From: Chthoniobacter flavus | Lineage (GTDB): Bacteria > Verrucomicrobiota > Verrucomicrobiia > Chthoniobacterales > Chthoniobacteraceae | Assembly: GCA_945861435.1 (NCBI GenBank) | Contig: CAMAUX010000004.1 | Coordinates: 1-64,000, forward strand | Direction: 5' to 3' | DNA length: 64,000 nt | Part shown: positions 334 through 43,170 of the stretch, one piece after another | Layout of the letters: each line of letters begins with the position of its first letter | How positions within the stretch are numbered: the stretch's first letter is position 1 | Made by a program: the position numbers and the translations under genes | The notes under the pieces: generated by a model | Database searches by the model: none | The model's input: the letters and a program-made list of their open reading frames with translations, nothing else | What the model was told of the DNA's origin: nothing

Positions 334-3300
334 ATGAACGCTTGGAAACTCCTGATTCTACTCGCTGCTTTCGCTTTCCAGCCCCTTCACGCAGCGCCCA
401 CACCCGCCATCCAGTTCCTTACCGAAGGCGCCCGCTTGGAACCCTCCAGCACACTGGAGATCCGCTTCCCAAACGACATGGTACCCCCCGAATCCCTTGG
501 CGCTACCACCGATGGCCCCGTCCTCATCGTGGAACCCGCACTGCCCGGTAGCTTCACATGGCTGAGCCGGCGCAGCGGCGTCTTCACACCAGAGGCCGCA
601 CCAAGGATGGGCACCGCCTACACCTTCACACTCCGCCCAGGATTGCGTGACCTCCGTGGCTCGCCCGTCGGCACCAACTTCAAACGCATCCTGCGCACCC
701 CTCCCTTCGCGCTCACTTTCATCCCGCAAACATGGGCCTCCAAAGATGCCCCCCTCCCGCCCAACCCGGAAATCCAAGTCGCCTTCAACCGCAACATCCA
801 CATCGAAAGCGCCGCGAGCTTCTTCGAATTCGCAGACCAATCCGGGAAGCGCGTTCCCGCCGTCCTCAACCGTCCCGCCAGCTACCAGCTCTATTTCTTT
901 GGACGTGATCCCGCCACCTCCGACTGGGAGGCCCGTTGGACGGAGGCCCTCCACCCCTCACCCTCCCCGCAACAAACAGACGACGATCCCGCCACACCGG
1001 AAGATCCCGCACACTCCCTGCCCGTCAGCAGCCGCCTCATGGTGTCACCGGCCTCCCCACTCCCGGCCGGGCGCTGGCGCTTGGAAATCGCAGCAGGCCT
1101 TCCCGACGCCTCCGGCCTCCATAAGATTCCCTCCAAGTCCTCCCACACGCTCGGGCTCGTGGAACCCTTTGAGCTCACAAGCGTGCGTACTGCCAGCCAT
1201 CTCAACTCGGGACGCAGCGTCGTCATCGAGCTCAGCGAACCACTCGCCCCATCCATCAACGACGACAACGCGCACGAGTTTTTCCTCTGCACACCGCAAC
1301 CCGCCGGGTTGCGTTTCGACGTCATGGGCACCTCAGTGACCCTGCAGGCCGCCTTCGATCGCGACACCGTCTACACCCTCGCTTCCCCGCCCAGCCTGCG
1401 TTCCCAATCTGGGCGCCCTCTCTCCGCTCCGCAGCAGCACACCCTGCGCTTCGCTCCCATCAGCCCTCGGGTCTACCTGCCCGACATCCTCATCCAGCAG
1501 AGCGAGGGCGGACGCCGCATCCTGCCCATCACCGCCGTCAACCTGCGTTCCCTGAGCGTGCGCGCAGTCCTTGTGGCTCCAGACGATGTCAGCGCCGCAC
1601 TCCAAACTTTCGAGAGCTACAGAAAGACCTTCGATCCCAAAGATCCTGAACCCGACGAGATTCATTCGCCCCTCAAAGCCGATGCAATCAGGGGCGCCAC
1701 CATTTTTGAAAAGCGCTACCCACTTCCCGAGGCACCAACCGACACGCGCCAGAGCATTGATCTGCCTTGGGATGAAATCCTCGGCGCACGGCGCACCGGC
1801 GTGCTTTTCGTCACTGTCGATGGCGCCCCGGCAAACGGCAGACACCCGGGCGCACAGGCCTTGGTGCAACTCACCGACCTCGGTGTCTCATGGAAGCAGC
1901 ATTCCCAAGGCCTTTCCCTCGCTCTCTTCTCCCTGCGTTCCGCGCAGCCTGTTGACGGAGCGCGGGTCACCTTGCTGGACGCCGATCACCGCCCACTCGC
2001 ACACGCGACCACCGACGCGCAAGGTGCCTCATTGCTTGCACCCAAGACCGTCCCCTCATGGCTGCTCGCGCAACACGCCAACGACACCCTCGTCCTCCCC
2101 ATGGGGCCCGATGCCAAGGACCTCCCCATGGCCGCTTTCAATCTGCCTGTCTACTACACAGCGTGGCAGCCGGGAGATGAACCCGCCGCCACCGAGCTTT
2201 TCCGCGCCGCCCTTTTCACCGAGCGCCCGCTCTACAAACCCGGCGAAAAAGTCTGCATCAAAGGCTTCCTCCGCAAACTGACCGATCACGGCCTCGAGCC
2301 GGTCGCCCATTTCCAAACCACTCTCGAGCTTCACCTCCCCGGCCAGCACGGCCAGCGCCAGATCCCCGTCCAAACCGACGCTGAAGGCGCCTTCGACACC
2401 GTATGCACTCTCGACAGGTCGATCGTCGGCCGCCACCTCCTCCGGTTCGAGGCGCTCCCCGGGGCCAACGCATGGGAACCCGGTTTCTCCACCAGATTCG
2501 AGGTCGCCCAGTATCAACCAGACGCCTTCGAAGCCGATCTCCAGTTGCCCGCGCAAATCCCGCCGGGCACCGCCATGGAAGCCCAGTTCGCGGGGAGATA
2601 CTTCTTCGGTGCACCCCTCTCCGAAGTTCCTGTGAAATGGGTGCTGCAGAACTCTCCCGCCCCGTTCCAGCCCGAAGGATGGAGCGCCTTCACGTTCACG
2701 GAACAGCGTCAGGGCAACGAACGATTCCTCACCCTGCGTGGCGAGGAACGCCTCTCCGCGAAGGGCACGGCATCCGTACGACCAGCACTGCCCGAGCCCA
2801 AAGGCGGACCCGCCCGCTCGGTCCTCACTGTGGAAGTCACGGATCTCAACCAGCAGACTGTCTCTGCCACGCGCACGTGCCTGCGGGACTCCTCCTCGTT
2901 CTACCTCGGACTCGAAATTCCCGACAAGGTGGTCCTTGGCCACGACGAAGCCATCGCCGCCCGGGTTGTCGCCGTCGATCCCGCCGGCAACCCGCTCCCC
3001 AGCCCCGCAGCTATCACGGTGGAACTCGTGCGCGTGCGCTTCGAAACCGTCCGCGTTCAAGGCGCCGGACGTGGCATGTCCTTTCAGAGCGAGCAGCGCC
3101 TCGAGCTTTTGGAAAGCCGCAAAACCTCCACACTCGTCCCGCAGAAAGCACCCGACGGATGGCACCTCTCCTCCGAGGACACGGATGCCACACTGTTCAA
3201 GCCGTCCAAGGCCGGCACCTACCTTCTGCGCGCGAGCGCCACGGACCCTGCGGGTCGCCCGGTATCGAGCTCCCTTTTTTTAAACGTCACCGGCAGCGAA

Positions 3301-6033: not shown

Positions 6034-6044
6034 GCGGCCCTCCG

Positions 6045-8393: not shown

Positions 8394-8414
8394 CGACCAA
8401 CAGGAACGTCCCCC

Positions 8415-9083
8415 CTATTTGCCTCGGAAAAAGTCACCCACACCGCGTCCCCACCGACCCACGGTCTGACCTGTGCGCCTGAAAAAAGTGCCCAGATCAC
8501 GTGCCGCCCCATCATCAGCGCCCTCCCCATCGCTCTCTGCGTTGCCGCCCGCCGGACGCACACGGCCCGCGGCAAGGATGCGCTGCTCTACCACCACCCC
8601 GTTATCCGCGGAAATCCGGAAAAACGCGGATTCGGAACCGTCGGCTTGGAAAAGACGAACCTCCCAGAGTGGCGCACCATCGTCCGTGGCGCTTTTAAGT
8701 AAGTAATCCATGTACGCGACGGAGATTCGTTGCTTTTTGGCCTCCCGCTTAATGAGTTCCTCTGTCCCGGGAGAATCTAGGTTGAGCTGACCGAAGTTCA
8801 TCACACTCCCGAGCGGCCGCGATGCAGGGGCACGCTCAGAGATCACCTGTCCGTTCTGCACATCGAGTTCGCGAAATCCGCCTCGCGCCTGATCCTCCTT
8901 GATTACCACCTTCCACACTTGGCTCTCCGGTGTTCCGCTGCGGCCGCGCAGTTCCACCACCCGCTTGAGGGCATCCCCGCCGACCGATTTTCCCGCCACA
9001 CGCAGGGCCGAGTAGGCGGATTCACCCGCATGGATCGCTGAGGTCAAACTCAGCATGAGAATTGCAAAACAGACGCTCTTCAT
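8415..9083 (-). CDS. secreted protein of unknown function, PepSY-like repeats
   Basis: 222 aa with a clear signal peptide (MKSVCFAILMLSLTSAIHA). The ATG at 9083 is preferred over an upstream GTG at 9092 because AAAGGGGGG sits eight bases upstream of it. The mature part has two stretches of the type W-x-V-x-(I/L) followed by D-x-x-N/D-G-x-V (VWKVVIKEDQ... and LWEVRLFQADG...), which resembles the beta-strand pattern of PepSY-like domains; that similarity is only suggestive. The C-terminus is basic and aromatic (FFRRTGQTVGRWGRG). It is convergent with pbpC, with 21 bp between them, and is read away from the rhomboid gene side of the block. I do not recognise a function. Confidence 0.7.
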   Translation of the reverse strand: MKSVCFAILMLSLTSAIHAGESAYSALRVAGKSVGGDALKRVVELRGRSGTPESQVWKVVIKEDQARGGFRELDVQNGQVISERAPASRPLGSVMNFGQLNLDSPGTEELIKREAKKQRISVAYMDYLLKSATDDGAPLWEVRLFQADGSESAFFRISADNGVVVEQRILAAGRVRPAGGNAESDGEGADDGAARDLGTFFRRTGQTVGRWGRGVGDFFRGK

Positions 9084-9122
9084 GGTTGCCACCCCCCTTT
9101 CTCCATCGAGAACCCCGCCAAG

Positions 9123-10055
9123 TCAACCGAAGCGCAACGCCAATCCCCAAGCCGCCCCCACCACGCCCACCGCCAATATCCCGCAGCAAAAACGCACCCC
9201 CTTCGGGAGCACCCGCCCTTTGCACACCGCCTCCCACCCCGCACCCACCACGCCACCCATGAGAAACCCCCAGAGGTGCGCCAGCAAATCCGTGCGCCCG
9301 TGCTCGCCCCCAGCGCCAAGAAGAGCCAGAAGCCCGAGCCCGCCGCCAAGAGGCAAGATCAACTGCCAACGCGCCCTAGCGTGCGGCCGCAAAAACCGCC
9401 GCAGCGACTCGATGCCGATCAGCACCCCAAGCGCTCCGAATACCGCTGTGGAAGCACCAATCGAAATGTGCCCCTCCCCCTTGTAAAACCAAGCGTTGAT
9501 CAGATTGCCTCCCATCCCTGAAACCAGCACAGAAAGCCACGCCGGTCCCGCCCCCAGACGCGAAAGCAACAGGCCCGTGAACAACAGCCCAACGCACACG
9601 TTGCCAACCCAGTGGGAAAAATCTCCGTGCAGAAAAAGCGCTGTCACCGCACGCCACCAGTGAAACCCCGGCATCCCGGCGCTCAATCCCTGTCCCGCTT
9701 CCATCCAAGGAGCGCCCCTCTGGTTCTGCAAAAGCCAGAATCCGCCCATGATCCATGCGGCAAAAAAAAGGGAGAAGGGAGCAAACCGGATTGTCTCCGC
9801 TTCGGGCCCAGCTGCCACACCCCCATGCGCACTCTCCGCTCCGTACTCCCCGAGTTCATCCAGTGCCTTAGCGACGTCGCCCTCAGCGACTTGAAGAACA
9901 AAATGATCGCCCTCCCTCACCACCCAGTGCGCCAGTCCCACAGCATTGAGAACCAACCCGTGCTCACGGGCCTGGGAAAGGCTGCAATAGACCCCCACGG
10001 TCAACCGCTCGCTGTCTTCCTCGCTCCCGTCTCCAAGGTCCTCCCCAGAACTCAT
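9123..10055 (-). CDS. rhomboid family intramembrane serine protease
   Basis: About 310 aa. A short cytoplasmic N-terminal domain of 90-100 residues precedes a six-helix rhomboid core. Catalytic features are visible: HGDFSHWVGN in the helix 2 region, the serine motif GAST in ISIGASTAVFG, and the C-terminal histidine in AHLWGFLMGG. Rhomboids cut transmembrane substrates within or near the inner membrane. The frame extends to a GTG at 10082 inside the preceding gene. I prefer the ATG at 10055, 13 bp after the end of the methyltransferase gene. The two genes probably form one transcript, though their functions are not obviously linked. The substrate is unknown. Confidence 0.9.
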   Translation of the reverse strand: MSSGEDLGDGSEEDSERLTVGVYCSLSQAREHGLVLNAVGLAHWVVREGDHFVLQVAEGDVAKALDELGEYGAESAHGGVAAGPEAETIRFAPFSLFFAAWIMGGFWLLQNQRGAPWMEAGQGLSAGMPGFHWWRAVTALFLHGDFSHWVGNVCVGLLFTGLLLSRLGAGPAWLSVLVSGMGGNLINAWFYKGEGHISIGASTAVFGALGVLIGIESLRRFLRPHARARWQLILPLGGGLGLLALLGAGGEHGRTDLLAHLWGFLMGGVVGAGWEAVCKGRVLPKGVRFCCGILAVGVVGAAWGLALRFG

Positions 10056-10068
10056 GCGGCACCGGGAC

Positions 10069-11148
10069 TCATGCGGCCTCACTCACCCGCACCAAATGCG
10101 CCACCACCTCGATCTCCGCAGTCTGAGGAAACATATCAAAGGGCGTGACTGACTCCAACCGGTAGCGTCCTGCAAGCAACCCAAGATCCCGCGCTAATGT
10201 CGCCGGATTACACGAAACATAAACCACCTCCGCAGGCCCCACCCCCGTAATCAATTCAGTCACTCGCGCACTGAGACCCGTGGCCGGAGGATCTGCGATC
10301 ACCGTGGTTCGGGCCGGATCCGCCCATGAAAGCACATCCCCGAGATGCACCTCCACGTCCCCGCAGATGTAGCTCTCGGTCGGCCCGGCACCACGGCGTG
10401 CACTCTCCACAGCCAGGGTGTTCTGCTCAATCCCAGCGACCCTCGCAAACTGCGATGCCAGATGCTTGGCAAAAAGGCCCGATCCACAGAACGCATCCAC
10501 AAGAAGTTCCTGCCCCACACGAACCATCCGTCCGACTGCCTCCACCATCTCCCTCGCCACCGCCTCATTCGTCTGCTCGAAAAACGGCCCTCCCCCGCCG
10601 GGTGCCCTCAAAGCGTAATCCCCGTCAGGAAGCCCGGCCGACCTCAGTCGGCGAAGCCCCGTATTGACCTCTGGCCGCGCAATTGGGCACTGCCCCACAT
10701 CCACCAAGCGGTTTGATCCAGCCTCATAAAACCCAGCCACACCGCCCGCCACATGCACCCGAATCCGGTTCCGATATCCGTATTCCTTGGGCGACGCCAC
10801 CATCGGGCGCATCGGCACCTGCTCCAGACGCCCCACCCTTCGCAGCGTCTGCTCCACTTGCGAGGCCTTCAACTCCAACTGCCGCGCATAGGAAAGATGC
10901 TGATAGGCACATCCTCCACACCGTCCAAAATACTCACACCGGGGCTCTACGCGTTCCGCCGCTGGACTGAGCACTCGCTCCAGATCCGCCTCCATAAACT
11001 GCTTCTTTTCCCTTCGCACGCGTGCGCTCACGCGGTCTCCGGGAGCGGTGAATGGAACAAAGCAGACGCGACCATCCACCCTCCCCACCCCCTTGCCCCC
11101 AAATGCCACATCCGTAATCTCCACTTCAATCGAACGCCCAGACTTCAT
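10069..11148 (-). CDS. class I SAM-dependent RNA m5U methyltransferase (RlmD/TrmA family), short form
   Basis: 359 aa. The N-terminal TRAM domain (about residues 1-58) is followed by a 4Fe-4S cysteine cluster (CEYFGRCGGC plus the Cys in GQCPIA), then a Rossmann methyltransferase domain with DAFCGSGLFA and the catalytic-cysteine motif YVSCNPATLARD, ending with FDMFPQTAEIE. These are the signatures of enzymes making 5-methyluridine in 23S rRNA or tRNA. It is shorter than the roughly 430-residue enterobacterial RlmD because the region between the Fe-S domain and the AdoMet domain is reduced. Which uridine it modifies cannot be told from sequence. It leads a probable two-gene unit with the rhomboid gene. 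Confidence 0.9.
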   Translation of the reverse strand: MKSGRSIEVEITDVAFGGKGVGRVDGRVCFVPFTAPGDRVSARVRREKKQFMEADLERVLSPAAERVEPRCEYFGRCGGCAYQHLSYARQLELKASQVEQTLRRVGRLEQVPMRPMVASPKEYGYRNRIRVHVAGGVAGFYEAGSNRLVDVGQCPIARPEVNTGLRRLRSAGLPDGDYALRAPGGGGPFFEQTNEAVAREMVEAVGRMVRVGQELLVDAFCGSGLFAKHLASQFARVAGIEQNTLAVESARRGAGPTESYICGDVEVHLGDVLSWADPARTTVIADPPATGLSARVTELITGVGPAEVVYVSCNPATLARDLGLLAGRYRLESVTPFDMFPQTAEIEVVAHLVRVSEAA

Positions 11149-11152
11149 TAGG

Positions 11153-11188
11153 TGAAAAAAGAGGCTTCCGTCTCACAACGGAAGCCTC
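11153..11188 (-). terminator. intrinsic terminator
   Basis: A perfect 11-bp inverted repeat (GAGGCTTCCGT at 11161-11171 and ACGGAAGCCTC at 11178-11188) with a 6-nt loop. Read on the minus strand it is followed at once by six Ts (11160-11155). It ends transcription of the TIGR04073-like gene before the methyltransferase gene, whose start codon lies just downstream. The methyltransferase transcript must therefore start within or right after it, or depend on read-through. Confidence 0.9.
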
Positions 11189-11254
11189 AAATACCGACAA
11201 TCAATAAAAGCCGATGCCCAACAACCCGGTAAGCGCCGGAGTTGGACTCAGAAG

Positions 11255-11677
11255 TCAACGCCTCCCGGAATAATCGCGGACGTAACGGTAGCGAGTTTCG
11301 AACCCCAGCTCCGGGGGAAACTCTTCCATACCTGAGTTAACCCAAGGAATGTTGCTAGTGTAGGGCTGGAAATAAGTCCCCTTATTCGTCGGGAACGGGA
11401 ACGTGATCACTTCATAAACCCCACAACCCAGTCGTGCGATGAACCTCGTGAACCCACGCACCGCTCCATAAATAATCGCGCTATTGCCTTCCGTCTCGTT
11501 AGCCGAAACCACCTGTATCGGGATCTCCGATGCACCGGTGAGTATGTTCGCAAGACCCCTCGACAACTTACGCCCAGGCCCCTGCGTCGTCATGGGCGGT
11601 TCCTGAATGTCAGCCATTACCGAAGCGGAGATCGTAAAGAGCACCGAAAAAAGGACGACGCAGGGGGGGAGTCTCAT
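11255..11677 (-). CDS. exosortase system-associated protein, TIGR04073-like
   Basis: 140 aa with an N-terminal signal peptide (MRLPPCVVLFSVLFTISASVMA). The core GRKLSRGLANILTGASEIP, followed by an FGCGVYEV-type segment (here RLGCGVYEVITFPFP), resembles the TIGR04073 family found in Verrucomicrobia and relatives that have exosortase/PEP-CTERM sorting. Function is unknown. The ATG at 11677 was chosen because the signal peptide begins there; an ATG at 11722 is also possible. It has its own intrinsic terminator at 11153-11188, so it is probably monocistronic or the last gene after the ExoD-like gene. No exosortase gene lies in this window. Confidence 0.7.
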   Translation of the reverse strand: MRLPPCVVLFSVLFTISASVMADIQEPPMTTQGPGRKLSRGLANILTGASEIPIQVVSANETEGNSAIIYGAVRGFTRFIARLGCGVYEVITFPFPTNKGTYFQPYTSNIPWVNSGMEEFPPELGFETRYRYVRDYSGRR

Positions 11678-11751
11678 TTGTGTAAAATCTAAAGGCCCGT
11701 CCCCTTGAAAGGCAATTGTCATTTTCTGCACTTGCAGCGCCACCGCCCTCA

Positions 11752-12420
11752 TTATCCCAGCCAGTTCCAGTGGTCAAAAATCCGCCGCACCCCCTCCCCC
11801 GCAAGGAGCACATACGCGGTGGCTATCACGTTGGTCGCATACCCAATGAGCACCAGCACCCCATCTCTCTCCACCATTCCACCAGTAAGCAGCAGCACAG
11901 CCACAGCCGGTATCGTGTTGCTAAAGGGCAACGGCAGGGGCAACGCAAGCAGCAGTCCAGCCACTGCGATCCCCACGCCAATCAGATTCCGGAAGCCCGG
12001 CCACTCCTGCAGAAACTCCAAGCGCGGCCGCACCAACCTCTCCAGCCTGCGACTGAGCGCCAGCCCCCCCCGCAAAATCTTCTCCAGCATCACCGGATTC
12101 AACTCCCGCTTCCGAATAAACCCGGGCAGCGACGGTTGCCGCCCGCACGCCAGCCTCAGCCCCATCAAGGCCACCACCACTCCGAAGGGAGTCGAAAGCC
12201 CCGGAAGCGCGGGGATCGCAAAAGGCAGCGCCAGCACGAAGATCATCAGCGCAAACCCGCGTCCGTGCAGGTTCTCCTCCAGTTCCGAAAGGCTCATCAC
12301 GCGCCCTTTCGAAAGCCCCAGGAGCAGCTCGATATCGGCCGAAAGCCTTCCACCCTCGACCCCAGCCTCCGCACTTCGGGAGCCTCCCTCCCGGTTCTGT
12401 TCGTGGGGCTGAGCGGTCAT
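11752..12420 (-). CDS. ExoD family membrane protein (exopolysaccharide synthesis-related)
   Basis: 222 aa. A soluble N-terminal part (about 1-60) has LSELEENLHGRGFALMIFV. Hydrophobic segments follow (LALPFAIPALPGLSTPFG, a GIAVAGLLLALPLPLPF segment, and a C-terminal pair), as in ExoD of Sinorhizobium. ExoD affects exopolysaccharide production and nodule invasion, but its biochemical role is unclear. The ATG at 12420 opens a Gln/Glu/Arg-rich leader. It is divergent from the rhodanese-like gene across a 216-bp gap. A link with the polysaccharide cluster at the right end of the window is possible but not shown. Confidence 0.85.
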   Translation of the reverse strand: MTAQPHEQNREGGSRSAEAGVEGGRLSADIELLLGLSKGRVMSLSELEENLHGRGFALMIFVLALPFAIPALPGLSTPFGVVVALMGLRLACGRQPSLPGFIRKRELNPVMLEKILRGGLALSRRLERLVRPRLEFLQEWPGFRNLIGVGIAVAGLLLALPLPLPFSNTIPAVAVLLLTGGMVERDGVLVLIGYATNVIATAYVLLAGEGVRRIFDHWNWLG

Positions 12421-28525: not shown

Positions 28526-30766
28526 ATGCGCACCCGTGCGCCCGCACCCGCTCTGGCACTTGCTGCATACCTGCTCCTCTCAGGACTCGGGAGCGCGGAT
28601 GACACCCGCGATGCCTTCTTCGAAAATCGCGTCCGCCCCATCCTCGCGAACCACTGCATCGACTGCCATGGCGAGAAGAAGCAAAAGGGCGGCCTGCGTC
28701 TCGACTCGCGCGCCGGTTGGGAACGGGGTGGCGACAACGGCCCCGCCATTGTCCCGGGTAAGAGCGCCGAAAGCCTTTTCTTCAAGGCTGTCCTCCATTC
28801 CGATCCCGACCTGAAGATGCCGCCCAAGGAACCCCTCGCGCCCTCCGATGTGGAGGCCCTCGCGAAGTGGATCGATTCCGGCGCAGCAGATCCGCGCACA
28901 GCGGCCGTGCGTCCGGTAGTCGATCCCGAGCAGGCAAAACGTCACTGGTCATTCCAACCTCTTGCACACACTTCCCCGCCGCCGGTCCACAATCCCGCAT
29001 GGTGCCGCAATTCCATCGACCAGTTCATTCTTGCCCGCCTCGAATCCGCACACCTCCAACCATCCCCCCAGGCAGACAAGGCGACCCTGCTGCGCCGCGC
29101 GAGCTTTGATCTCACAGGGCTCCCACCCTCCGAAGACGACCTCCACGCATTCCTCGCCGATGATTCCCCGCGCGCTTGGGAGCAGGTGGTCGACCGCCTC
29201 CTTGCCAGCCCCCAATACGGCGAGCGCTGGGGCCGCCACTGGCTAGACCTCGCTCGCTACGCAGACACCTGCGGCTTCCACAACGACCTCGACCGCCCCC
29301 ACGCATGGCGTTACCGCGACTACGTCATCGACAGCTTCAACGCCGACAAACCCTACCAGCGCTTCGTCGCCGAACAGCTCGCCGGCGACGAAGTGACAGA
29401 CGCCGATGAACTCACCCTGGTCGCCACCGGCTTCTGCCGCAATGGCCCCTCCAATGACGACAACATGGGCGTCGATCGCGAGCAGTACCGCATGGACCAG
29501 CTCGACGACGTGGTCTCCACCACCGCCAACGTCTTCCTCGGACTCACCATCGGTTGCGCCCGCTGCCACGACCACAAGACAGACCCCTTCTCTAGCGCAG
29601 ATTACTACAGCCTCATCGCCGTTTTCTACGGCACCGAAAAACGCGGCGTCCCAAAGGAGCCCCCCCCCAAGGATCCAGACAAAAACTCCGACCCCGAAAA
29701 GGCCGCCAAACCGCAGCCGATCAACTACCACGCCCTTGTGGAGACCAAGGCCACTGTGCGTCCCGTCCACATCCTGCGTCGCGGCAGCGTCAAGAATCCG
29801 GGCGCGATCGTCGATCCCGCTGTGCCTGCGGTTCTTTCCACCAACCACCCGCTCCCCCTGCAACCACCGCAGGCGGGCGCCAAGTCCTCGGGGCGCCGGA
29901 TCGCCCTCGCGCAATGGATCACCAGCGAGCACAACCCTCTCACATGGCGGGTACTCGCCAACCGCATCTGGCAGCACCACTTCGGCTCTGGTCTCGTAGC
30001 CACCCCTAGCAACTTCGGCTTCAAAGGCTCCTCTCCCACACACCCCGAGCTCCTCGACTTCCTTGCTCATCAGCTTCTGGAATCCGGAGGCCGCTGGAAG
30101 CCCCTCCACAGACTGATCCTTCTCTCGGCCGCCTATCAGCAGGAGTCCCGCGCACGCACCGATGCATTTCAAACGGATCCCGAAAACCGCCTTCTGTGGC
30201 GAATGCCCATGCGCCGTCTCGAAGCAGAGGCCATCCGGGATGCCATTCTATCCAGTGCAGGCACACTCAACACCCGCGCGGGCGGCCCCGGAATCAAACC
30301 ACGCATCCGTCCTGAGCTCCTCACCGCCAGCCAGCGCAACAAGTGGCCGCAACACGCGGAGGAGGGCCCGGAGCTCTGGCGGCGCAGCGTGTATATCTAC
30401 GTGAAACGCCAGCTCTTGATGCCAATGCTCGAGCTCTTCGACGCACCCACCACCACCGACTCCTGCCCCGAACGCATCCACAGCGTGCTCCCCACCCAAG
30501 CCCTCGTGCTCATGAACGACGAGTTCGTCGAGGACCATGCCGCCCTCCTCGCCCAGCACGCATGGGAAAGCGCTCGCGGCGACTTCTCCACTGCCATCCG
30601 AATCCTGCACGAACGCACCCTCTCAAAGCCCCCCACCGCGCCCCGCCTCGCGCAATCCCTCGCATTCCTCCAGACCCAGACAAGTGCCGGCGCAAACCCC
30701 GTCGACGCGCTCGCCGACCTCGCCCACGTCCTCTTCAACAGCAGCGAGTTTCTCTCCCTCGAATGA
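28526..30766 (+). CDS. planctomycete-type cytochrome protein (PSCyt1-DUF1549-DUF1553)
   Basis: 746 aa with a signal peptide (LALAAYLLLSGLGSAD). PSCyt1 has the haem motif CIDCHG followed by KKQKGGLRLDS. DUF1549 has YGERWGRHWLDLARYADTCG and a second CxxCH (CARCHDHKTDP). DUF1553 has LANRIWQHHFGSGLVATPSNFG, SPTHPELLDFL and SVLPTQALVLMNDEFV. Unlike the 1041-aa paralog it stops right after DUF1553. The linker KEPPPKDPDKNSDPEK is encoded partly by a C9 tract (29660-29668) that could slip. The stop overlaps the DUF1501 start by 4 bp (ATGA). Confidence 0.92.
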   Translation: MRTRAPAPALALAAYLLLSGLGSADDTRDAFFENRVRPILANHCIDCHGEKKQKGGLRLDSRAGWERGGDNGPAIVPGKSAESLFFKAVLHSDPDLKMPPKEPLAPSDVEALAKWIDSGAADPRTAAVRPVVDPEQAKRHWSFQPLAHTSPPPVHNPAWCRNSIDQFILARLESAHLQPSPQADKATLLRRASFDLTGLPPSEDDLHAFLADDSPRAWEQVVDRLLASPQYGERWGRHWLDLARYADTCGFHNDLDRPHAWRYRDYVIDSFNADKPYQRFVAEQLAGDEVTDADELTLVATGFCRNGPSNDDNMGVDREQYRMDQLDDVVSTTANVFLGLTIGCARCHDHKTDPFSSADYYSLIAVFYGTEKRGVPKEPPPKDPDKNSDPEKAAKPQPINYHALVETKATVRPVHILRRGSVKNPGAIVDPAVPAVLSTNHPLPLQPPQAGAKSSGRRIALAQWITSEHNPLTWRVLANRIWQHHFGSGLVATPSNFGFKGSSPTHPELLDFLAHQLLESGGRWKPLHRLILLSAAYQQESRARTDAFQTDPENRLLWRMPMRRLEAEAIRDAILSSAGTLNTRAGGPGIKPRIRPELLTASQRNKWPQHAEEGPELWRRSVYIYVKRQLLMPMLELFDAPTTTDSCPERIHSVLPTQALVLMNDEFVEDHAALLAQHAWESARGDFSTAIRILHERTLSKPPTAPRLAQSLAFLQTQTSAGANPVDALADLAHVLFNSSEFLSLE

Positions 30767-32190
30767 ACCGCCCTCTCTCACGCCGGCACATGCTCCAACT
30801 CGCCGGGGGCGGCTTCGGAGCCACGGCATTCAACGCCCTCCTCGGTGCCGATCAGCCCCCCTCCAACCCGGGGCCGGACCCCGCCCACCCACTGCTCGCC
30901 CGCCCGCCTCACTTCGCCCCAAAGGCCACGTCCGTCATCTTCCTCTTCATGTACGGGGGCCCGAGCCACATCGACCTCTTTGACCCAAAACCCGAACTCG
31001 AAAAGTGGCACGGCAAGGCAATCCCTGTGTGGAAACCGGAGGACGCTTTCATGGGCAAGAAGACCCAGAACGTCGCGATGAAGAGCTACTACGCGTTCGC
31101 TCCCCACGGCGCCTCGGGCATGGAAATCTCGGAAGCCTACCCGCACCTCTCCAAGCACGCGGACGAACTCTGCCTCATCCGCTCCATGCACGCAGAGAGC
31201 AACAACCACGGGCCAGCCCTGTTCCAGATGAACAGCGGTTTCATCCAAGCGGGACGCCCCAGCATGGGATCCTGGCTCACCTATGGCCTCGGCTCCGAAA
31301 GCCAGAACCTTCCAGGATTCGTCGTCCTCCTCGACCAACTGGGCGCCCCAGTCAACGGCGCGATGAACTGGTCCAACGGCTTCATGCCAGCCGCTTACCA
31401 AGGCGTTCCCTTCCGCTCAAACGGCGACCCCATCGCCTACCTCAACCCGCCCAAACGCACCACCGCCCAACGCCAGCGCTCACGACTCGACCTGCTCCAA
31501 AAGTGGAATCAGGAGTACGCCGACGCCCACCCCCTCGAAACCGCCCTCTCCGCGCGCGTCGCCTCCTACGAACTCGCCTTCCGCATGCAGATGAGCGCCG
31601 CCGAGTGCACCAACCTCTCCGACGAACCAGACCCCATTCGCCAAGCCTACGGCCTCGACCAACCCGTCACCCGCCACTTCGGACGCAACTGCCTGCTCGC
31701 CCGCCGTCTGGTCGAACGCGGCGTCCGTTTCGTCCAAGTCTACAGCGGCGGCAACGAGGGTCCCAAAGCATGGGACGCCCACGACGACCTTAAAAAGAAT
31801 CACGACCTCCACTGCGCCGAAACCGACGCCCCCATCGCCGCACTCCTCACCGATCTCAAAAACCGCGGCCTCCTCGACACCACCCTCGTCGTCTGGGGCG
31901 GCGAATTCGGACGGTCCCCCGTCGCAGAGAACGGCAAGGGCCGCGATCACCATCCCAAGGGCTTCACCATGTGGATGGCCGGTGGCGGCGTCCGCGGCGG
32001 AATCATCCACGGCGCCACCGACCCCTTCGGTTACAACGCCATCGAGAACAAGGTCTCCGTGCCAGATCTTCACGCCACGATGCTCCATCAAATGGGCCTC
32101 GACCACGAACGCCTCACCTTCCGCCATTCCGGTCGCGATTACCGCCTCACCGACGTCAGCGGGCGCGTTGTGCGTGAGATTCTTGCCTGA
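30763..32190 (+). CDS. DUF1501 family protein (Tat-exported)
   Basis: 475 aa from the ATG at 30763, which overlaps the previous stop by 4 bp. The frame is open much further upstream, but that part is the shadow of the PSCyt gene. A Tat leader (LSRRHMLQLAGGGFGATAFN) is present. Family landmarks: FLFMYGGPSHIDLFDPKP, NNHGPALFQMNSG, VVWGGEFGRSPVAENGKGRDHHP, FTMWMAGGGVRGG. It is paralogous to the protein at 14627-16063, with the same metal-site-like His/Asp positions. Its substrate is unknown. It is the last gene of the barrel operon, 100 bp before the pseudokinase gene. Confidence 0.92.
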   Translation: MNRPLSRRHMLQLAGGGFGATAFNALLGADQPPSNPGPDPAHPLLARPPHFAPKATSVIFLFMYGGPSHIDLFDPKPELEKWHGKAIPVWKPEDAFMGKKTQNVAMKSYYAFAPHGASGMEISEAYPHLSKHADELCLIRSMHAESNNHGPALFQMNSGFIQAGRPSMGSWLTYGLGSESQNLPGFVVLLDQLGAPVNGAMNWSNGFMPAAYQGVPFRSNGDPIAYLNPPKRTTAQRQRSRLDLLQKWNQEYADAHPLETALSARVASYELAFRMQMSAAECTNLSDEPDPIRQAYGLDQPVTRHFGRNCLLARRLVERGVRFVQVYSGGNEGPKAWDAHDDLKKNHDLHCAETDAPIAALLTDLKNRGLLDTTLVVWGGEFGRSPVAENGKGRDHHPKGFTMWMAGGGVRGGIIHGATDPFGYNAIENKVSVPDLHATMLHQMGLDHERLTFRHSGRDYRLTDVSGRVVREILA

Positions 32191-32290: not shown

Positions 32291-34912
32291 ATGCCTCCCC
32301 CCAGAGACATCGAGGTGCGCTCTCAAAACGGCGACACCCTGCTCAAGACCACGCTCCCGTCCGGCATCTATCTCATCGGCGCCGACGAATGCGCGGCCCT
32401 TCGTATTCAGGGATCCGATGTCCGCGCCCAACACTGTCACCTCGTCATCAGCGAAAAGGAGGTCCTCCTGCTGGAGACCAACGCTGCCGATCCCTCCCAC
32501 AGCACTACCGTTGTGCTCTCCCCGATGCGTCCAACCAGCATCGGTTCGGCTCAACTTCACCTCCACCAATCGTCTGCTCCAGAAAAGGAAAAAGCTTCAT
32601 CCAAATACGCACTCGGCTCCGTCATCACCCGTGGGAGCTCCGGCCAGATCCACAACGCCGTCGAGAAAACCACAGGGCGCAGAGTCGCAATGAAGCTCCT
32701 GCCGGTTTCAGCAAACGACGAAACAGACAGCGACAGGTTCCTCGCAGAAGCCAAAATCACCGCGCAGCTCGAGCACCCGGGCGTCGTCCCCGTGTACGAA
32801 TTGGGTACCGCATGGGCAGGTCGCCGCTTCTACACCATGAAGCTCGTCGACGGCATCACCCTTGCCAAAATCCTCGAGGACATCCACGCCGGCAATCCCG
32901 CGGTGGTGCACAAGTATCCCCTCGCAGCTCTCCTCGCAGCGTTCCAAAAGGTTTGCGACGCCATCGCGTACGCCCACAGCCGCGGCATCCTCCACCGCAA
33001 CCTCAAACCCGAGAACATCACGCTCGGCGCCTTCGGCGAGGTCCTCGTCACGAACTGGAGCGTTGCCATCCACATCAATTCCCTTGCCGATCCCCATTCC
33101 CACAGAGAGGGCGAAGTCATCGGCACCGCCCGTTACATGAGTCCGGAGCAGGCACGGGCGGAAAACAGCACCCTCGACCCTCGCAGCGACATCTACTCCC
33201 TTGGCGCCATCCTCTTCCGCATCCTCAGCCTCCGCTCTTCGGTCGCCGACGGCCCCGTGCTCGAAATACTCGAACGTGTAGGCAGGGGACGAATCCTCCC
33301 TCTCAAAGATCCCCCTCGCAATCCCAAGGTCGAATCCCACCTCCCTGGCGGCCGAATTCCGGCCTCACTCGCAGCCATAGTCAACAAGGCCATGGCCTTC
33401 GATCGCAACCAGCGCTACGCCTGCGTGTCCGACCTCCTCAACGACCTGGATGGCTACCGCAACGGCTACCTCACCAGCGCCGAGCGCGGCACATGGTGGA
33501 AACGGGGCGCACTCTTCCTCTGGCGTCACAGGATCACCAGCGTCGCCGCCGCCTTCGTCCTTATCTTCGGCGGTGCACTCGCAGCCAAAAGCCTCATCGC
33601 AGCACGCCAAGCGGGAGCCGCCCTCGCCAAGCAGCGCTCCAGCGCCCCCATCCTGCGTCAACTCGCCCAAAGCGAGGCCGCATCGCAGCGCCTCGCCTCC
33701 GCACTCAAAAAACTCGATACCGCCCTGCAACTCGACCCGGATCACCTCCCCACCATCGCCCGCATGGCATGGATCAACGCCGGCCTCGCACGCATGAACG
33801 ACGCCGCATCCCTCATGCGCAACGTGATCGAACGCGACCCTGCCAACGAAGAAGCACGGCAGTCCCTTCCCCTCTTCGAAAAACTCGCCCGCATCCCACC
33901 TCGAGACTGGTCTAAACGAGGCCCAAACTCCATCGCCCCGGAAGACACACGCAGCCTCGTCGAGTTGATGACCGCTCGTGGCCTCACCGGCGAAACCCTA
34001 GCACTCGGAAATTTCCTCACCCTCTCCTCGGAGCAAAAACAACAGATCATCACCAGCCGCCTCGAAGAACTCCTCGGAAAATCAGGCAACTGGGACCTCT
34101 CCCTCAACCAAAACACTTCCCCTAAAGAGATCCGCCTGATCATCCATGATCCAGCCTTCAGCAGTCTGGAACCTCTGCGAGGACTTCCCTTGGACGCCCT
34201 AGACATCGCCGGCACTTCGGTCACCGACATCTCCCCCCTGCGGGGCATGGACCTCAAGGTGCTGAAAATCTCCGGACTCAACGTCTCAGATATTTCTGTG
34301 GTACAAGGAATGCCGCTTCGTAATCTGGACATTCGAAACACGCAGGTGTTCACACTCGCAGCGATTCGAGGCGCGTCCCTCGCTCATCTTCATGCGACCG
34401 GTTGCCCGCTGCCCGACTTCAGGCCGCTCAAGTTTATGCCACAGCTCCAATACCTGAGCTTGGGCAACAATCTGGCCCCGCTCGAATTATCCCTCCTCAC
34501 CACCAAACAGATCGTGAGTCTCTCGCTCGATCAGTCGGGCATCTCCGATCTCTCTCCACTCACAGGCCAGCAACTGGAAAGACTCTCCATCTCCTCCAAC
34601 CCCGTCTCGGATCTGTCCCCGCTCAAGAGCATGCCAATTGTCGAACTCCACATGCTCAATGTCGGCCAACCCAAAGGCATGGAAACTCTGGCGACCATGC
34701 CAAACCTCACCTCCCTGCACATCTCCTCCGAGTCGGTTCCGTTCCTCCCTGCGGCCCTCCTCAAGAAGCCCGATCTCAAGATCATGATCGATCCCGCACC
34801 CCGATCCTCTGACGACCTCCAGCGCGATCGATCCAACCCAAATCCCCAACCTCAGTCGCCGCCCCAGCCGCAACCCATACCGGCTCCTCAGCCGCCTCCG
34901 CGCCAAGGCTAA
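32291..34912 (+). CDS. predicted membrane pseudokinase: FHA-like domain, kinase fold, TM helix, leucine-rich repeats
   Basis: 873 aa. Residues 1-95 resemble a degenerate FHA domain (GIYLIGADECAALRIQG, no GR or SxxH pair). A Ser/Thr kinase fold spans about 106-395. The ATP lysine is kept (Lys135 in VAMK), as are Glu153, GTARYMSPEQ and DPRSDIYSLG. Both catalytic aspartates are lost: the HRD motif reads HRNLKPEN (Asn237) and the DFG position reads TNWS (Asn255). Both are AAC codons where the paralog downstream has GAC. A TM helix lies at about 414-434, then a tetratricopeptide-like helical stretch, leucine-rich repeats with an SDISPL pattern (about 615-840) and a Pro/Gln-rich tail. It probably binds nucleotide but does not phosphorylate, and may regulate the active kinase. 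Confidence 0.88.
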   Translation: MPPPRDIEVRSQNGDTLLKTTLPSGIYLIGADECAALRIQGSDVRAQHCHLVISEKEVLLLETNAADPSHSTTVVLSPMRPTSIGSAQLHLHQSSAPEKEKASSKYALGSVITRGSSGQIHNAVEKTTGRRVAMKLLPVSANDETDSDRFLAEAKITAQLEHPGVVPVYELGTAWAGRRFYTMKLVDGITLAKILEDIHAGNPAVVHKYPLAALLAAFQKVCDAIAYAHSRGILHRNLKPENITLGAFGEVLVTNWSVAIHINSLADPHSHREGEVIGTARYMSPEQARAENSTLDPRSDIYSLGAILFRILSLRSSVADGPVLEILERVGRGRILPLKDPPRNPKVESHLPGGRIPASLAAIVNKAMAFDRNQRYACVSDLLNDLDGYRNGYLTSAERGTWWKRGALFLWRHRITSVAAAFVLIFGGALAAKSLIAARQAGAALAKQRSSAPILRQLAQSEAASQRLASALKKLDTALQLDPDHLPTIARMAWINAGLARMNDAASLMRNVIERDPANEEARQSLPLFEKLARIPPRDWSKRGPNSIAPEDTRSLVELMTARGLTGETLALGNFLTLSSEQKQQIITSRLEELLGKSGNWDLSLNQNTSPKEIRLIIHDPAFSSLEPLRGLPLDALDIAGTSVTDISPLRGMDLKVLKISGLNVSDISVVQGMPLRNLDIRNTQVFTLAAIRGASLAHLHATGCPLPDFRPLKFMPQLQYLSLGNNLAPLELSLLTTKQIVSLSLDQSGISDLSPLTGQQLERLSISSNPVSDLSPLKSMPIVELHMLNVGQPKGMETLATMPNLTSLHISSESVPFLPAALLKKPDLKIMIDPAPRSSDDLQRDRSNPNPQPQSPPQPQPIPAPQPPPRQG

Positions 34913-34976
34913 GCCCCACTCGCGCCGTCCCTAGTTCATGCGCCTCTGCACCCTCCAACCCCTCCAACCTTCAGCC

Positions 34977-34986
34977 AAGGAGGTGG
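34977..34986 (+). promoter_or_regulatory. strong ribosome binding site of the active kinase gene
   Basis: AAGGAGGTGG ends four bases before the ATG at 34991. It is a near-perfect anti-16S match and the strongest one I saw in the window, where most genes have none. It fixes the start and suggests the active kinase is translated more efficiently than the pseudokinase. Confidence 0.85.
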
Positions 34987-34990
34987 CCAC

Positions 34991-37900
34991 ATGAGTCCCT
35001 CTCCTCCCATGGTCGTGACCCTGCTCACCACCGCCGGCCAACGTCTGCTGGAACTCCCGCTTAGTCCGGGAACCCACACCATCGGCAGCGCCGATACCGC
35101 ATCCCTTCGCATCCAACTCCCAGGCATAGAGCCCCTGCATGCGCGCCTCAGCGTCGATGACTTCGGCCTCACCGTGGAAAGCCTCGTCGACGACAAACCC
35201 GTGGAACTCGACCAGATCCCACTCGAAAGCACCGCACTCATGTTCCCGGGCCAGCGCCTCAAGCTCGGCGACCTCTTCCTTGAACTCGAGGCCCCAGACC
35301 CCTCCTCCCGCCCTCCCTCAAGCGATAAGTACGCGATCGGCGACGTCTTCGCACGCGGCGGCATGGGCGTCGTCCGCTCGGCCCTCGACCCGGAAATCGG
35401 CCGCACCGTCGCTGTCAAAGTTCTGCACAGCAATCTTAAGGATCCCACGCAGAAACATCGCTTCCTCAACGAAGCCAGACTCACCGCACGCCTCCAGCAC
35501 CCAAGCATCGTCCCAGTCTACGAACTCGTCGAAGAACACGACGGCGACAACTTCTACGTGATGAAGTTGGTCCAAGGCGTGACCCTCAAGAAAATCCTCG
35601 ATTCCCTCGCCAAAGATGACGCGGAAATGGCCGCCAAGTACCCGCTCCCCACCCTCCTCACCGCCTTCGGCAAGGTCTGCGACGCCATCGCCTACGCGCA
35701 CAGTCGCAATGTCGTCCACCGCGACCTCAAACCGGACAACATTATGCTCGGCAACTATGGCGAGGTCTTCGTCATGGACTGGGGCGTCGCCAGGGAATTC
35801 GGCCACAACGACCAATCCGAAGTATCCCTCTCCGATGCCTCCGACGCGGGCCTCACCCTAGACGGCGAAGTCGTCGGAACCCCCCAGTACATGAGCCCCG
35901 AACAAGCCCGCGCAGAGGGATGGGCCATCGATGGCCGTAGCGACATCTACGCCCTCGGCGGCATTCTCTACGAAATCCTCGCCCTGCGCGCCTCCATTTC
36001 CATGCGCCCGGACCTCCGCGGCAACGAGGGACTCCTCGACATTCTCGATCGCGTGGGCCGCGGCCAGATCACCCTCATCTCGCCCCCAAAAAACATCCGC
36101 TTTCAGCACCTGCCAAGCGGCCGCATCCCGGAGGCCTTCACCGCCATTGTCTCAAAGGCCATGGCCCATGACCAGAGAGCCCGATATAAAAACGTCACCG
36201 CCCTCCAGCAAGATCTCGAGAGGGTTCAAGGAGGCTATCTCACCACGGCAGAAAACCAGACGCTGCGCAGGAAACTCAGCCTCTTTGTCGCTCGCAACCG
36301 CACCCTCCTCGTTGCATCCCTCCTCCTCCTCTTCATTGCATCTACCGCCATTTTCCAGACCATTCGATCAGGTCAAAACGCCGCGCGTGCACTCGCCGAA
36401 CTCACGTCCACTGCCTCGTCCCTTCTCGCAGCGGCGGACCGCGAGGCTTCTTATAATCATCTCGACAGTGCCTTGGAAAAACTCGATGCCGCACACCTGC
36501 TCAACCCGGCCCTCCGCATTGACCCCAGCCTCCGAGTGTGGATTCACATTGCACAGGGCCAGCCCATCCCCGCTGCAAATGCGCTGCGGAGTACCGCTCA
36601 GGGGGACACCGCTCATCCCTCGGCTGCGTCACTGCTCCCTATTCTCAGCCGCCTCTTCAACACTCCCATTCATGATTGGTCTCCGGAGGACCGCCTCGCG
36701 CTTCTGAACACACTCGAAACCCACGGCCGCTCCGGAGAACGCCTTCACCTCACCCACCTCCTCCAAGCCAGCGCCGCCCCGATCCTCTCCCTCATCCAAA
36801 ACCAACTCGCTTCTCGCCCCGGTGGAGACAATTTCATCGTCTCCATCGACTCCCGTGGCCTCATCGCCGTCGAGCTAAAGCAGTTCTCCTCCCACTCGTC
36901 CCTCGAACCACTGCGCGCTCTGCCCATAAGGTCCCTCAACCTCAATGGCTCAACCACAATCTCCGACCTCTCCCACATCGCCGGACTAAAACTCGTCGCC
37001 CTTAAAATCTCCGGCAGCCCGGTCACCGACCTCGGCCCTCTGCGCGGCATGCCCATCGAAATCCTCGAAGCTCACGGCTGCCCCCTCTCCAGCATCGATA
37101 TACTGTCAGGCATGCGTCTCCGACGCCTCACCCTCTCAAACAAAGCCCTCAAGTCAGCCAACCTCAGCGTCCTCGCAGACGCCCCGCTCGAAGAACTCGA
37201 ACTCTCGGGGCTCCCCGTCGGAGATCTCACGCCCCTCAGCCGCAAACCCCTTCGCATCCTCAAACTCATTAACAGCGACGTACGCGACCTCGCCCCTCTT
37301 CACGGCGCTCCCATTCGCATCCTCGACCTCCAAGGATGCTCTCAACTCCAGTCCGCCAACCAACTCGCTGTCCTCGTCCGCCTACGCGAACTCACCGAAC
37401 TCTCCCTTCCTCCCAACGCCGAACTCCCCGAACTCCTGCGCATCCATCCCGCACTCCAAAAAGTCAGGATGATCCCCTTCGCACCGACCTACCAATCGAA
37501 GGACACCTTCTGGGAGCAGTACCAAAAAAGACGCTCCCAAGCCCCTGCTCACCCGCGCATCAACGCCGCATGGATCTGGGGCGACTCCGCAGCCAATGGC
37601 AAATTCCCGCCCGGCAACGAGCAAGTCCTCCTGCGCACCACATGGAAGCTCGATGCCCCGCCTTCCTCCGGCATCGCCTTGGTCACCTGCGACGACGTTT
37701 TCAACCTCTACATCAACGACAAGCCCGTAGCGTACAGCGCCGAATTGGCAAAACTCACCTCCATCCCACTCCACGACAAACTCCAAAAGGGCGACAACCA
37801 TATCGTCGTCGCCGCATCCAACGTCGGCGCCGGCTCAAACCCAGCCGGCTTCTTCTTCTACGCCGAAGCCGCACTCTCCAACGGATCCCGCACCTCTCTC

Positions 37901-38086
37901 GCATCCAACTCCTCATGGGAATGCATTCCCAGATCCCTCGATATTCGTCCGGAGCGCTACGCCGAACTTCCCAAGGATTGGAAACCCGCCACCGAAGTAA
38001 CCGCAAATGCTCAATGGTCGGCTATCATCTCCAGTCAGGGCCCGCCTCTCCTTGACCAACCTGCCGCTCAAGCACCCGCCCGCTAA
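34991..38086 (+). CDS. membrane Ser/Thr protein kinase with FHA-like, LRR and galactose-binding-like domains
   Basis: 1031 aa. An FHA-like N-terminus (about 1-100) is followed by a kinase domain at about 114-415. It has ARGGMGVV glycine loop, Lys143, Glu161, HRDLKPDN (Asp245), MDWG in place of DFG (Asp263), and GTPQYMSPEQ. DWG kinases of this type are common in PVC bacteria. A TM helix lies at about 438-456. Outside the membrane are a helical region, leucine-rich repeats (about 640-830), and a C-terminal beta-sandwich (about 855-1010; WIWGDSAANGKFPPGNEQVL, VTCDDVFNLYINDKPV) of galactose-binding/rhamnosidase N-terminal type. It resembles a receptor kinase whose outer part could bind a carbohydrate or protein. 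It aligns along most of its length with the preceding pseudokinase, which lacks the C-terminal sandwich. Confidence 0.93.
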   Translation: MSPSPPMVVTLLTTAGQRLLELPLSPGTHTIGSADTASLRIQLPGIEPLHARLSVDDFGLTVESLVDDKPVELDQIPLESTALMFPGQRLKLGDLFLELEAPDPSSRPPSSDKYAIGDVFARGGMGVVRSALDPEIGRTVAVKVLHSNLKDPTQKHRFLNEARLTARLQHPSIVPVYELVEEHDGDNFYVMKLVQGVTLKKILDSLAKDDAEMAAKYPLPTLLTAFGKVCDAIAYAHSRNVVHRDLKPDNIMLGNYGEVFVMDWGVAREFGHNDQSEVSLSDASDAGLTLDGEVVGTPQYMSPEQARAEGWAIDGRSDIYALGGILYEILALRASISMRPDLRGNEGLLDILDRVGRGQITLISPPKNIRFQHLPSGRIPEAFTAIVSKAMAHDQRARYKNVTALQQDLERVQGGYLTTAENQTLRRKLSLFVARNRTLLVASLLLLFIASTAIFQTIRSGQNAARALAELTSTASSLLAAADREASYNHLDSALEKLDAAHLLNPALRIDPSLRVWIHIAQGQPIPAANALRSTAQGDTAHPSAASLLPILSRLFNTPIHDWSPEDRLALLNTLETHGRSGERLHLTHLLQASAAPILSLIQNQLASRPGGDNFIVSIDSRGLIAVELKQFSSHSSLEPLRALPIRSLNLNGSTTISDLSHIAGLKLVALKISGSPVTDLGPLRGMPIEILEAHGCPLSSIDILSGMRLRRLTLSNKALKSANLSVLADAPLEELELSGLPVGDLTPLSRKPLRILKLINSDVRDLAPLHGAPIRILDLQGCSQLQSANQLAVLVRLRELTELSLPPNAELPELLRIHPALQKVRMIPFAPTYQSKDTFWEQYQKRRSQAPAHPRINAAWIWGDSAANGKFPPGNEQVLLRTTWKLDAPPSSGIALVTCDDVFNLYINDKPVAYSAELAKLTSIPLHDKLQKGDNHIVVAASNVGAGSNPAGFFFYAEAALSNGSRTSLASNSSWECIPRSLDIRPERYAELPKDWKPATEVTANAQWSAIISSQGPPLLDQPAAQAPAR

Positions 38087-42441: not shown

Positions 42442-43170
42442 TCAGCCCGGCTCCGCTTCAATTAACCCAAGCAACCCGTCCCTACGCACATGCAACACGG
42501 AAATCCGCCCACTGCACTCGTCTTTAAACAACTGGAACGAACGCCCGGAACAGCCCAACTGTAAACGCGCCTCTTCCAGCGACATCGGCTTGAGTCCTAT
42601 CCGCTCCAAACGAATCTCCTGCATCTCCCCCCTGGGCGACCCATCGCCCCCATCGCCCCCATCGCCCCCATCGCCCCCATCGCCCCTGTCAACCCGCTGC
42701 GCTGCCTCCACCCCTCGCCTCACAACCCGCTGCGCACGCAGCCTCCGCGTCTTACACTTCCGGATCCGCCTACAGATCTTGTCCACCACCCCATCGAGTG
42801 AAGCATACATGTCTCTCGTCTCGCATACCGCCTCCAACCTTACGCGAGCCCCACACCTGAGCACCAACTCCGCCCGGTGCCGGCCCCTCACCACACCAAG
42901 GATGACGTGTGCCTCCCGCACCCGCGGAAACCCTTCTGGCAAATGCCCCAGCTTCGCAAGTGCGTAGGCTCTGAGGCCGTCGGTCAACCTCATCTGCCTC
43001 CCTGTGAACTGCACCGACAGCCCCCCATCATCCCCATCATCCCCATCATCCCCATCGTCCCCATCGTCCCCATCGTCCCCATCATCCCCCACCTGCAGCA
43101 TCCCGCCACGCTCCCCCCCCCCAACACCCCACGCGCTCGAAACCCCATTTTCCCATTTGTTACGTCTCAC
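42442..43170 (-). CDS. hpf: long-form ribosome hibernation promoting factor with repeat-expanded leader and linker
   Basis: 242 aa. The HPF/RaiA domain begins near residue 51 (LSVQFTGRQMRLTDGLRAYA). The C-terminal dimerisation domain (about 193-240) reads KPMSLEEARLQLGCSGRSFQLF and ends GLIEAEPG. Long HPFs pair 70S ribosomes into inactive 100S dimers. Two features are unusual: an N-terminal extension with seven GDD units, and a linker with five GDG units, each from a 9-bp DNA repeat. AAAGGGG seven bases before the GTG at 43170 supports translation of the extension. An ATG at 43101 and a GTG at 43014 (GGGGGG six bases upstream, right at the domain start) are alternatives. A G10 run lies in codons 17-20. 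Position after lptB matches the proteobacterial order. Confidence 0.92.
   Translation of the reverse strand: MRRNKWENGVSSAWGVGGGERGGMLQVGDDGDDGDDGDDGDDGDDGDDGGLSVQFTGRQMRLTDGLRAYALAKLGHLPEGFPRVREAHVILGVVRGRHRAELVLRCGARVRLEAVCETRDMYASLDGVVDKICRRIRKCKTRRLRAQRVVRRGVEAAQRVDRGDGGDGGDGGDGGDGSPRGEMQEIRLERIGLKPMSLEEARLQLGCSGRSFQLFKDECSGRISVLHVRRDGLLGLIEAEPG
42640..42686 (-). repeat. 9-bp G-rich tandem repeat in the hpf linker
   Basis: Five units with a 9-bp period. On the coding strand, runs of 4, 5, 5, 5, 5 and 3 Gs are separated by the 4-nt loop CGAT. It encodes GDG repeats between the two hpf domains. Four or more G runs with short loops fit a G-quadruplex in mRNA or the non-template strand. Confidence 0.85.
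43021..43090 (-). repeat. 9-bp G-rich tandem repeat near the hpf start
   Basis: Eight G runs of 4-6 on the coding strand are separated by seven 5-nt spacers (ATGAT or ACGAT), an exact 9-bp period. It encodes seven GDD units if the GTG at 43170 or ATG at 43101 is used, or lies in the leader if the GTG at 43014 is used. The pattern fits G4-N5 quadruplex rules. Confidence 0.88.
43113..43122 (-). repeat. G10 homopolymer in the hpf N-terminal extension
   Basis: Ten consecutive Gs on the coding strand within codons 17-20 counted from the GTG at 43170. Slippage by one base would end the extended form and leave the internal starts at 43101 and 43014 usable. It could also act as a Shine-Dalgarno-like element for the ATG at 43101. 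Confidence 0.6.

Follow-up and report, generated by a model that had tools for sequence, protein, structure and literature searches.

What is known of bacterial pseudokinases comes mainly from isolated families that are heavily degraded and have no obvious partner. Their functions have been described as largely unexplored (PMC12599244). Here we describe a pair of adjoining genes of Chthoniobacter flavus in which the presumed partner adjoins the pseudokinase. The pair lies in a 64,000-nucleotide stretch (assembly GCA_945861435.1, contig CAMAUX010000004.1, positions 1 to 64,000), referred to below as the window. The first gene (P0001, 873 aa; 32291-34912) encodes a receptor-like protein with a predicted dead kinase domain, and the second (P0002, 1031 aa; 34991-38086) encodes a paralogue, 39% identical over its full length, that is predicted to be an active kinase. 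Both genes, and all of their features given below, are on the forward strand. Why cells retain a dead kinase beside a live one is directly testable in such a small system.

Several described systems resemble this pair in part. MviN of Mycobacterium tuberculosis (ActPs3) is likewise a bacterial membrane protein with a Hanks-fold pseudokinase, with functional ties to FHA biology as well as to an active kinase: PknB phosphorylates MviN, which recruits FhaA (PMC12599244). However, MviN and its kinase are not paralogues encoded by neighboring genes, its motifs are fully degraded (VALT, with no HRD or DFG) and its architecture is different. ActPs3 is marked by full degradation of the motifs, whereas P0001 retains VAMK, HRN..K..N and NWS (compared with Table 1 of PMC12599244). 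EssB/YukC, a component of type VII secretion systems, is also a bacterial pseudokinase bound to the membrane, and its role is structural, as that of P0001 might be, but it is strongly degraded and has no tandem active paralogue (PMC12599244). In eukaryotes, EFR and BAK1 are leucine-rich repeat (LRR) receptor kinases with one transmembrane (TM) segment, and kinase-dead EFR still activates BAK1 allosterically (PMC11259431). The window pair similarly combines a single TM segment and extracellular repeats (a topology taken from hydropathy and charge) with dead and live paralogues that are co-inherited. In contrast to EFR, which is naturally active and carries its LRR on the N-terminal side, the pair has C-terminal LRRs, a naturally dead partner and tandem genes. 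EFR-BAK1 and MviN-PknB thus demonstrate that allosteric and scaffold versions of such a partnership both exist. Lastly, PknB has the same kinase fold and is the nearest solved structure (5u94, TM-score 0.88, 30% identity), with its kinase inside and its sensor outside. Unlike PknB, the pair has TPR-like and LRR regions and no PASTA repeats (the PASTA model gives 164 and 211 bits, cut-off 450), and it also scores far below the PknD-type model PRK13184 (177-222 bits, cut-off 839).

Verrucomicrobiota, Planctomycetes, HRN and leucine-rich repeats all go unmentioned in a review of bacterial pseudokinases (PMC12599244). We found no account of bacterial receptor kinases arranged as a tandem dead/live pair in the literature outside subscription papers, a scope that leaves absence unproven. 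We rate bacterial pseudokinases as already known, and the dead/live tandem receptor pair as a variant that appears to be new.

The kinase domains of P0001 (residues 107-377; 32609-33421) and P0002 (residues 122-407; 35354-36211) match the Pkinase profile with 99.9 and 122 bits, respectively (cut-off 31.7). An AlphaFold2 model of P0001, made from a 35-row alignment, has a mean pLDDT of 85, mostly above 90 in the kinase domain, and the best structural match of that domain is PknB (TM-score 0.88 on the PknB chain). The significant profile match and the bilobal fold of the model place P0001 among proteins with the Hanks-type Ser/Thr kinase fold, and the fold is predicted to be intact. A preliminary description of the window had reported Asn at both catalytic Asp positions of P0001, and the AAC codons are exactly where it placed them: N237 at the catalytic Asp position of HRD (32999-33001, in HRNLKPEN) and N255 at the metal-binding Asp of the DFG-equivalent (33053-33055, in TNWSVA). 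Asp occupies these positions in over 90% of the 35 relatives aligned and, as also reported, in P0002 (D245 in HRDLKPDN, 35723-35725; D263 in MDWG, 35777-35779). The description was equally right that P0001 keeps the ATP lysine and the fold motifs; the beta3 Lys K135 (VAMK), the alphaC Glu E153, HR, the catalytic-loop residues K239 and N242, and SPE are all present. The glycine loop is altered (RGSSG where RGGMG is expected), NWS stands for DWG, and the activation loop is shorter and has no Thr of the kind that relatives conserve; H271 (33101-33103) takes its position.

Outside the kinase domain, P0001 has an N-terminal FHA-like region, a single TM segment (residues 414-439, 33530-33607, from hydropathy; helix 414-437 in the model), TPR-like helices (residues 454-523, 33650-33859, from profile and model), leucine-rich repeats that resemble those of internalin A and Roco proteins (about residues 626-835, 34166-34795) and a Pro-rich tail. 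The model agrees with this layout from the FHA-like region to the LRRs, and with a pTM of 0.46 its relative placement of the domains is unreliable. The TM segment of P0002 is at residues 436-459 (36296-36367, from hydropathy). Basic residues lie on the kinase side of the TM segment of P0001, which by the positive-inside rule would put the kinase inside and the TPR and LRR regions outside. The genes are separated by 78 bp that contain a ribosome-binding site, AAGGAGG (34977-34983), preceding the active kinase gene.

Three further pairs bear on this reading. A Pkinase search of the window genome (G000) gave 21 matches, including two more tandem pairs. On contig C13 (L026), the pseudokinase gene is at about 9675-11957 on the minus strand, with one TAG, and the active gene is at 7068-9668. 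On contig C14 (L027), the pseudokinase gene is at 8353-10776 and its active partner probably starts from the ATG at 10773. Among 40 genomes of the family, one other has a pair, the congener G002 (L145: 4254-6884 and 6881-9415). The pseudokinase gene precedes the active kinase gene at all four loci, and the C14 and G002 pairs have a 4-bp ATGA start/stop overlap that probably reflects translational coupling. In the C13 and C14 pseudokinases the two motifs read HRN and NWG, and both the glycine loop and the beta3 Lys (now VALH and VCLR) are gone. The first kinase of G002 has HRS, GWG and substitutions of the catalytic-loop Lys (to Arg) and Asn (to Ser), and its second kinase is canonical. The two Asp sites therefore read N/N, N/N, N/N and S/G. 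The loss of at least one of the VAIK Lys, the HRD Asp and the DFG Asp defines a pseudokinase, and both Asp residues are gone in all four copies. The preliminary description had proposed a test of whether the Asn residues are conserved across orthologues, and they are not; because the G002 copy is dead by other substitutions, the conserved trait is catalytic loss and not Asn itself.

P0001 might instead keep a weak or different chemistry, such as nucleotide binding, AMPylation or slow phosphotransfer. It has K135, E153, K239, N242 and much of the glycine loop, and pseudokinases such as SelO and SidJ have other activities (PMC12599244). However, the Lys and Asn of the catalytic loop are gone from one paralogue, and the beta3 Lys (now His or Arg) and the glycine loop from the other two; thus no nucleotide chemistry is common to the pseudokinase lineage. 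We regard this alternative as very improbable.

The pairs appear to descend from a single duplication. In a tree of 747 columns and 24 rows that covers the kinase, TM, TPR and LRR regions, the pseudokinases of all four pairs group in one clade (97/94), their active partners group in another (100/100), and the two are joined with support of 100/100. The nearest relatives of the joint clade are three single canonical kinases of a second congener, G003. A tree of the kinase domain alone does not resolve the active clade and recovers the pseudokinase clade at 87/91. A separate local duplication at each locus was rejected by constraining the partners as sisters (AU p 0.0015 in the window and 4e-7 in G002). 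The clade structure and the rejected constraints therefore strongly support one duplication that preceded the split of G000 and G002, and catalytic loss presumably also occurred once, before the same split. In each of the two clades the C13 copy is sister to the C14 copy, which argues that the pair was copied whole, as a unit.

The neighborhood of the pair points the same way. Upstream of it on the same strand are a PSD1-family gene (PF07587; 28526-30766) and, directly adjoining, a gene that we take to be of DUF1501 type from its sequence (30763-32190). The order PSD1-DUF1501-kinase recurs in the window (PSD1 and DUF1501 at 28526-32190), at L145 of G002 and at L146 of G003, where the kinase gene is single and active, and the DUF1501 genes of these loci are homologous (E about 1e-115, phmmer). 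Proximity to PSD1 is by itself weak evidence, since each of these genomes has about 50-55 PSD1 genes. The repeated order and the strong homology, however, indicate a shared ancestral locus, and the single-kinase locus of G003 is probably the state before duplication. The preliminary proposal of gene duplication followed by catalytic loss is thus borne out by both the clades and the G003 locus. Single active, N/N dead and S/G dead states all occur within one genus.

Catalytic loss was accompanied by retention of most of the domain. Across the four active partners and five outgroup kinases, 76 kinase-domain sites do not vary, and the pseudokinases retain 67, 64, 62 and 60 of them. Only four sites are lost in every pseudokinase: M117 in the glycine loop, D237, D255 and T271 in the activation loop. 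The loss is therefore concentrated on catalysis and activation, with the fold preserved. Between the C13 and C14 copies, dN/dS is 0.33 (0.25-0.45; dN 0.21, dS 0.63) for the pseudokinase domain and 0.22 (0.15-0.31) for the active kinase domain; these are counting estimates and, with dS of 0.6-1.0 moderately saturated, they are approximate. The kinase domain is the best-conserved part of these two pseudokinases (68% identity, compared with 42% for the TPR and LRR regions). Together, these values indicate purifying selection on the dead kinase domain. It is possible to imagine a dead decoy or split sensor, in which the pseudokinase gives only ligand binding through its LRR/TPR regions and membrane anchoring, with its kinase domain as a mere spacer. 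The LRR and TPR-like regions are indeed present in all four copies, and uninterrupted in three, but conservation and purifying selection centered on the dead kinase domain would be needless for a spacer, and we find this explanation quite improbable.

The accessory domains agree only in part with the preliminary description, which gave both proteins an FHA-like, kinase, TM and LRR layout with matching outer domains. The kinase, TM and LRR regions are shared, and the TPR-like region had been overlooked. The FHA-like region is weak: it matches Yop-YscD_cpl with E 0.035 and FHA not at all in P0001, and it matches Yop-YscD_cpl with E 1.6e-6 and FHA with E 0.22 (12.4 bits, cut-off 20.7) in P0002. 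Canonical FHA domains bind phosphothreonine through Gly-Arg and Ser-x-x-His. Every FHA-like domain of the pairs lacks these residues, and the window proteins have GA or GS for GR and no Ser in S-x-x-H; on these residues we reject a role as phosphothreonine reader. The outer domains match only partly, as two pseudokinases have no FHA-like domain and the C-termini of the active partners vary from copy to copy. A C-terminal difference between the two window proteins had been noted correctly: P0002 has an extra lectin-like domain (37544-37930), absent from the other active partners, that matches a two-domain fungal lectin (6t0q and 6kbj, E 7e-8), an assignment made by phmmer alone (an AlphaFold model of this C-terminus made without an alignment has a pLDDT of 32). 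The C14 active gene terminates in a partial F1-ATPase alpha/beta C-terminal domain (PF00306, 46 bits; L027:13365-13640) for which there is a full match on C16, and this end stems from either a true outer-side fusion or a join made in assembly.

The state of the FHA-like domains bears on whether the pseudokinase could be a phosphorylated scaffold, with the active partner phosphorylating its cytoplasmic part and so recruiting downstream proteins, without any control of kinase activity. MviN, PknB and FhaA provide a bacterial precedent (PMC12599244), and the gene linkage and selection data fit a scaffold equally well. However, without phosphothreonine-binding residues in the FHA-like domains the obvious reader module is absent, and the activation-loop Thr is gone from the pseudokinases. 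We consider a scaffold role rather unlikely.

We postulate instead that the two genes encode receptors that are made together and each cross the membrane once, their kinase domains lying inside and their TPR/LRR regions outside. By motif, one receptor would be an active Hanks-type Ser/Thr kinase, and the other would be its catalytically dead paralogue, retained for a non-catalytic role. The dead kinase domain would contact the active partner and set its activity, by allosteric activation or inhibition, and ligand sensing might be divided between the two ectodomains. A heteromer is the best explanation because the receptors are linked, co-duplicated and probably coupled, and the dead one has a preserved kinase fold. 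Control of the active partner through a heterodimer, as the preliminary description proposed, is plausible on these grounds and on the shared gene order. We infer the absence of phosphotransfer, complex formation, the direction of control and the ligand alike. That the pseudokinase forms a complex with its live partner and controls it seems probable, though not strongly so. The fuller account is more tentative, and we give it slightly less than an even chance: a co-encoded pseudokinase paralogue would allosterically switch its live partner across the membrane, having arisen by one duplication within the genus and been copied as a two-gene cassette, with the ancestral unduplicated locus remaining in a sister species.

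Several observations weigh against such control of the live partner. The C13 pseudokinase gene has a lone in-frame TAG (L026:10557-10559, minus strand) between the TPR and LRR regions. Two congeners, G001 and G003, have no pair, so that it is present in two of the four genomes of the genus, and no further member of the clade was found in 213 genomes of the order (E 1e-105). The FHA-like domain is missing from the C13 and C14 pseudokinases, and matching layouts are thus not strictly required. The saturation of dS, mentioned above, belongs here as well. The TAG and the congeners without a pair could suggest ongoing decay of a redundant duplicate, or a sequencing or assembly error. The preliminary description had named strain-specific decay or error as the alternative, should orthologues of the first protein usually carry Asp; the first kinase is non-Asp at both sites in all four pairs. 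Decay or error is rejected by the occurrence of the Asn pair three times in the assembly, by one more dead copy in a second genome and by dN/dS well below 1. In addition, the pseudokinase frames are otherwise open across 760-876 aa, and that of C13 is intact and homologous beyond the TAG. We regard decay or error as largely refuted and highly improbable.

An HRN motif search of 388 genomes of the phylum gave matches in 16, the window genome among them, and no other pseudokinase-then-kinase pair of the same kind was seen. A contig scan by seed peptides would miss copies such as that of G002, and absence is not provable from its listed matches. The other HRN matches are mostly single-gene, unrelated pseudokinases or HRN kinases that retain DFG. 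By motif, both members are active in the further tandem kinase pairs of the family (L149, L150 and L151).

The searches also returned other unusual kinases. A second, separate kind of pseudokinase (L034:5696-6781, minus strand, on contig C35 of the window genome; L112:8137-9159; L122:8899-10239) keeps the Lys and Glu, has HGS, HCT or HAA for HRD, has lost the catalytic-loop Lys and Asn, and has NWA, NWG or SWC for DWG. Unpaired pseudokinase genes from another Verrucomicrobiota family (L184, L185 and L186) encode HRN and N[YF]N and lack the beta3 Lys; they appear to have converged on Asn in the two Asp positions. At L193, adjoining open reading frames (ORFs; 5078-7039 and 899-5074, minus strand) each encode two kinase domains, and one of the proteins has HRD/DFG followed by HRN/DFS. 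A large set of Hanks-type kinases, drawn from Lentisphaerota, Kiritimatiellota, Verrucomicrobiota and Planctomycetota (L089, L091, L097, L104, L106, L113, L120, L130, L134, L143 and about 18 more loci among the matches listed) has Ala for the beta3 Lys (VAMA), a Lys in place of the final glycine of the glycine loop (GGxK), HLD for HRD, and DWG retained. In these bacterial kinases the ATP lysine seems to have been relocated in a WNK-like way. Lastly, an ORF elsewhere in the window (42442-43170, minus strand) has long Asp-Gly tracts (DGDDGDDGDD... and GGDGGDGG...) that resemble an in-frame tandem repeat.

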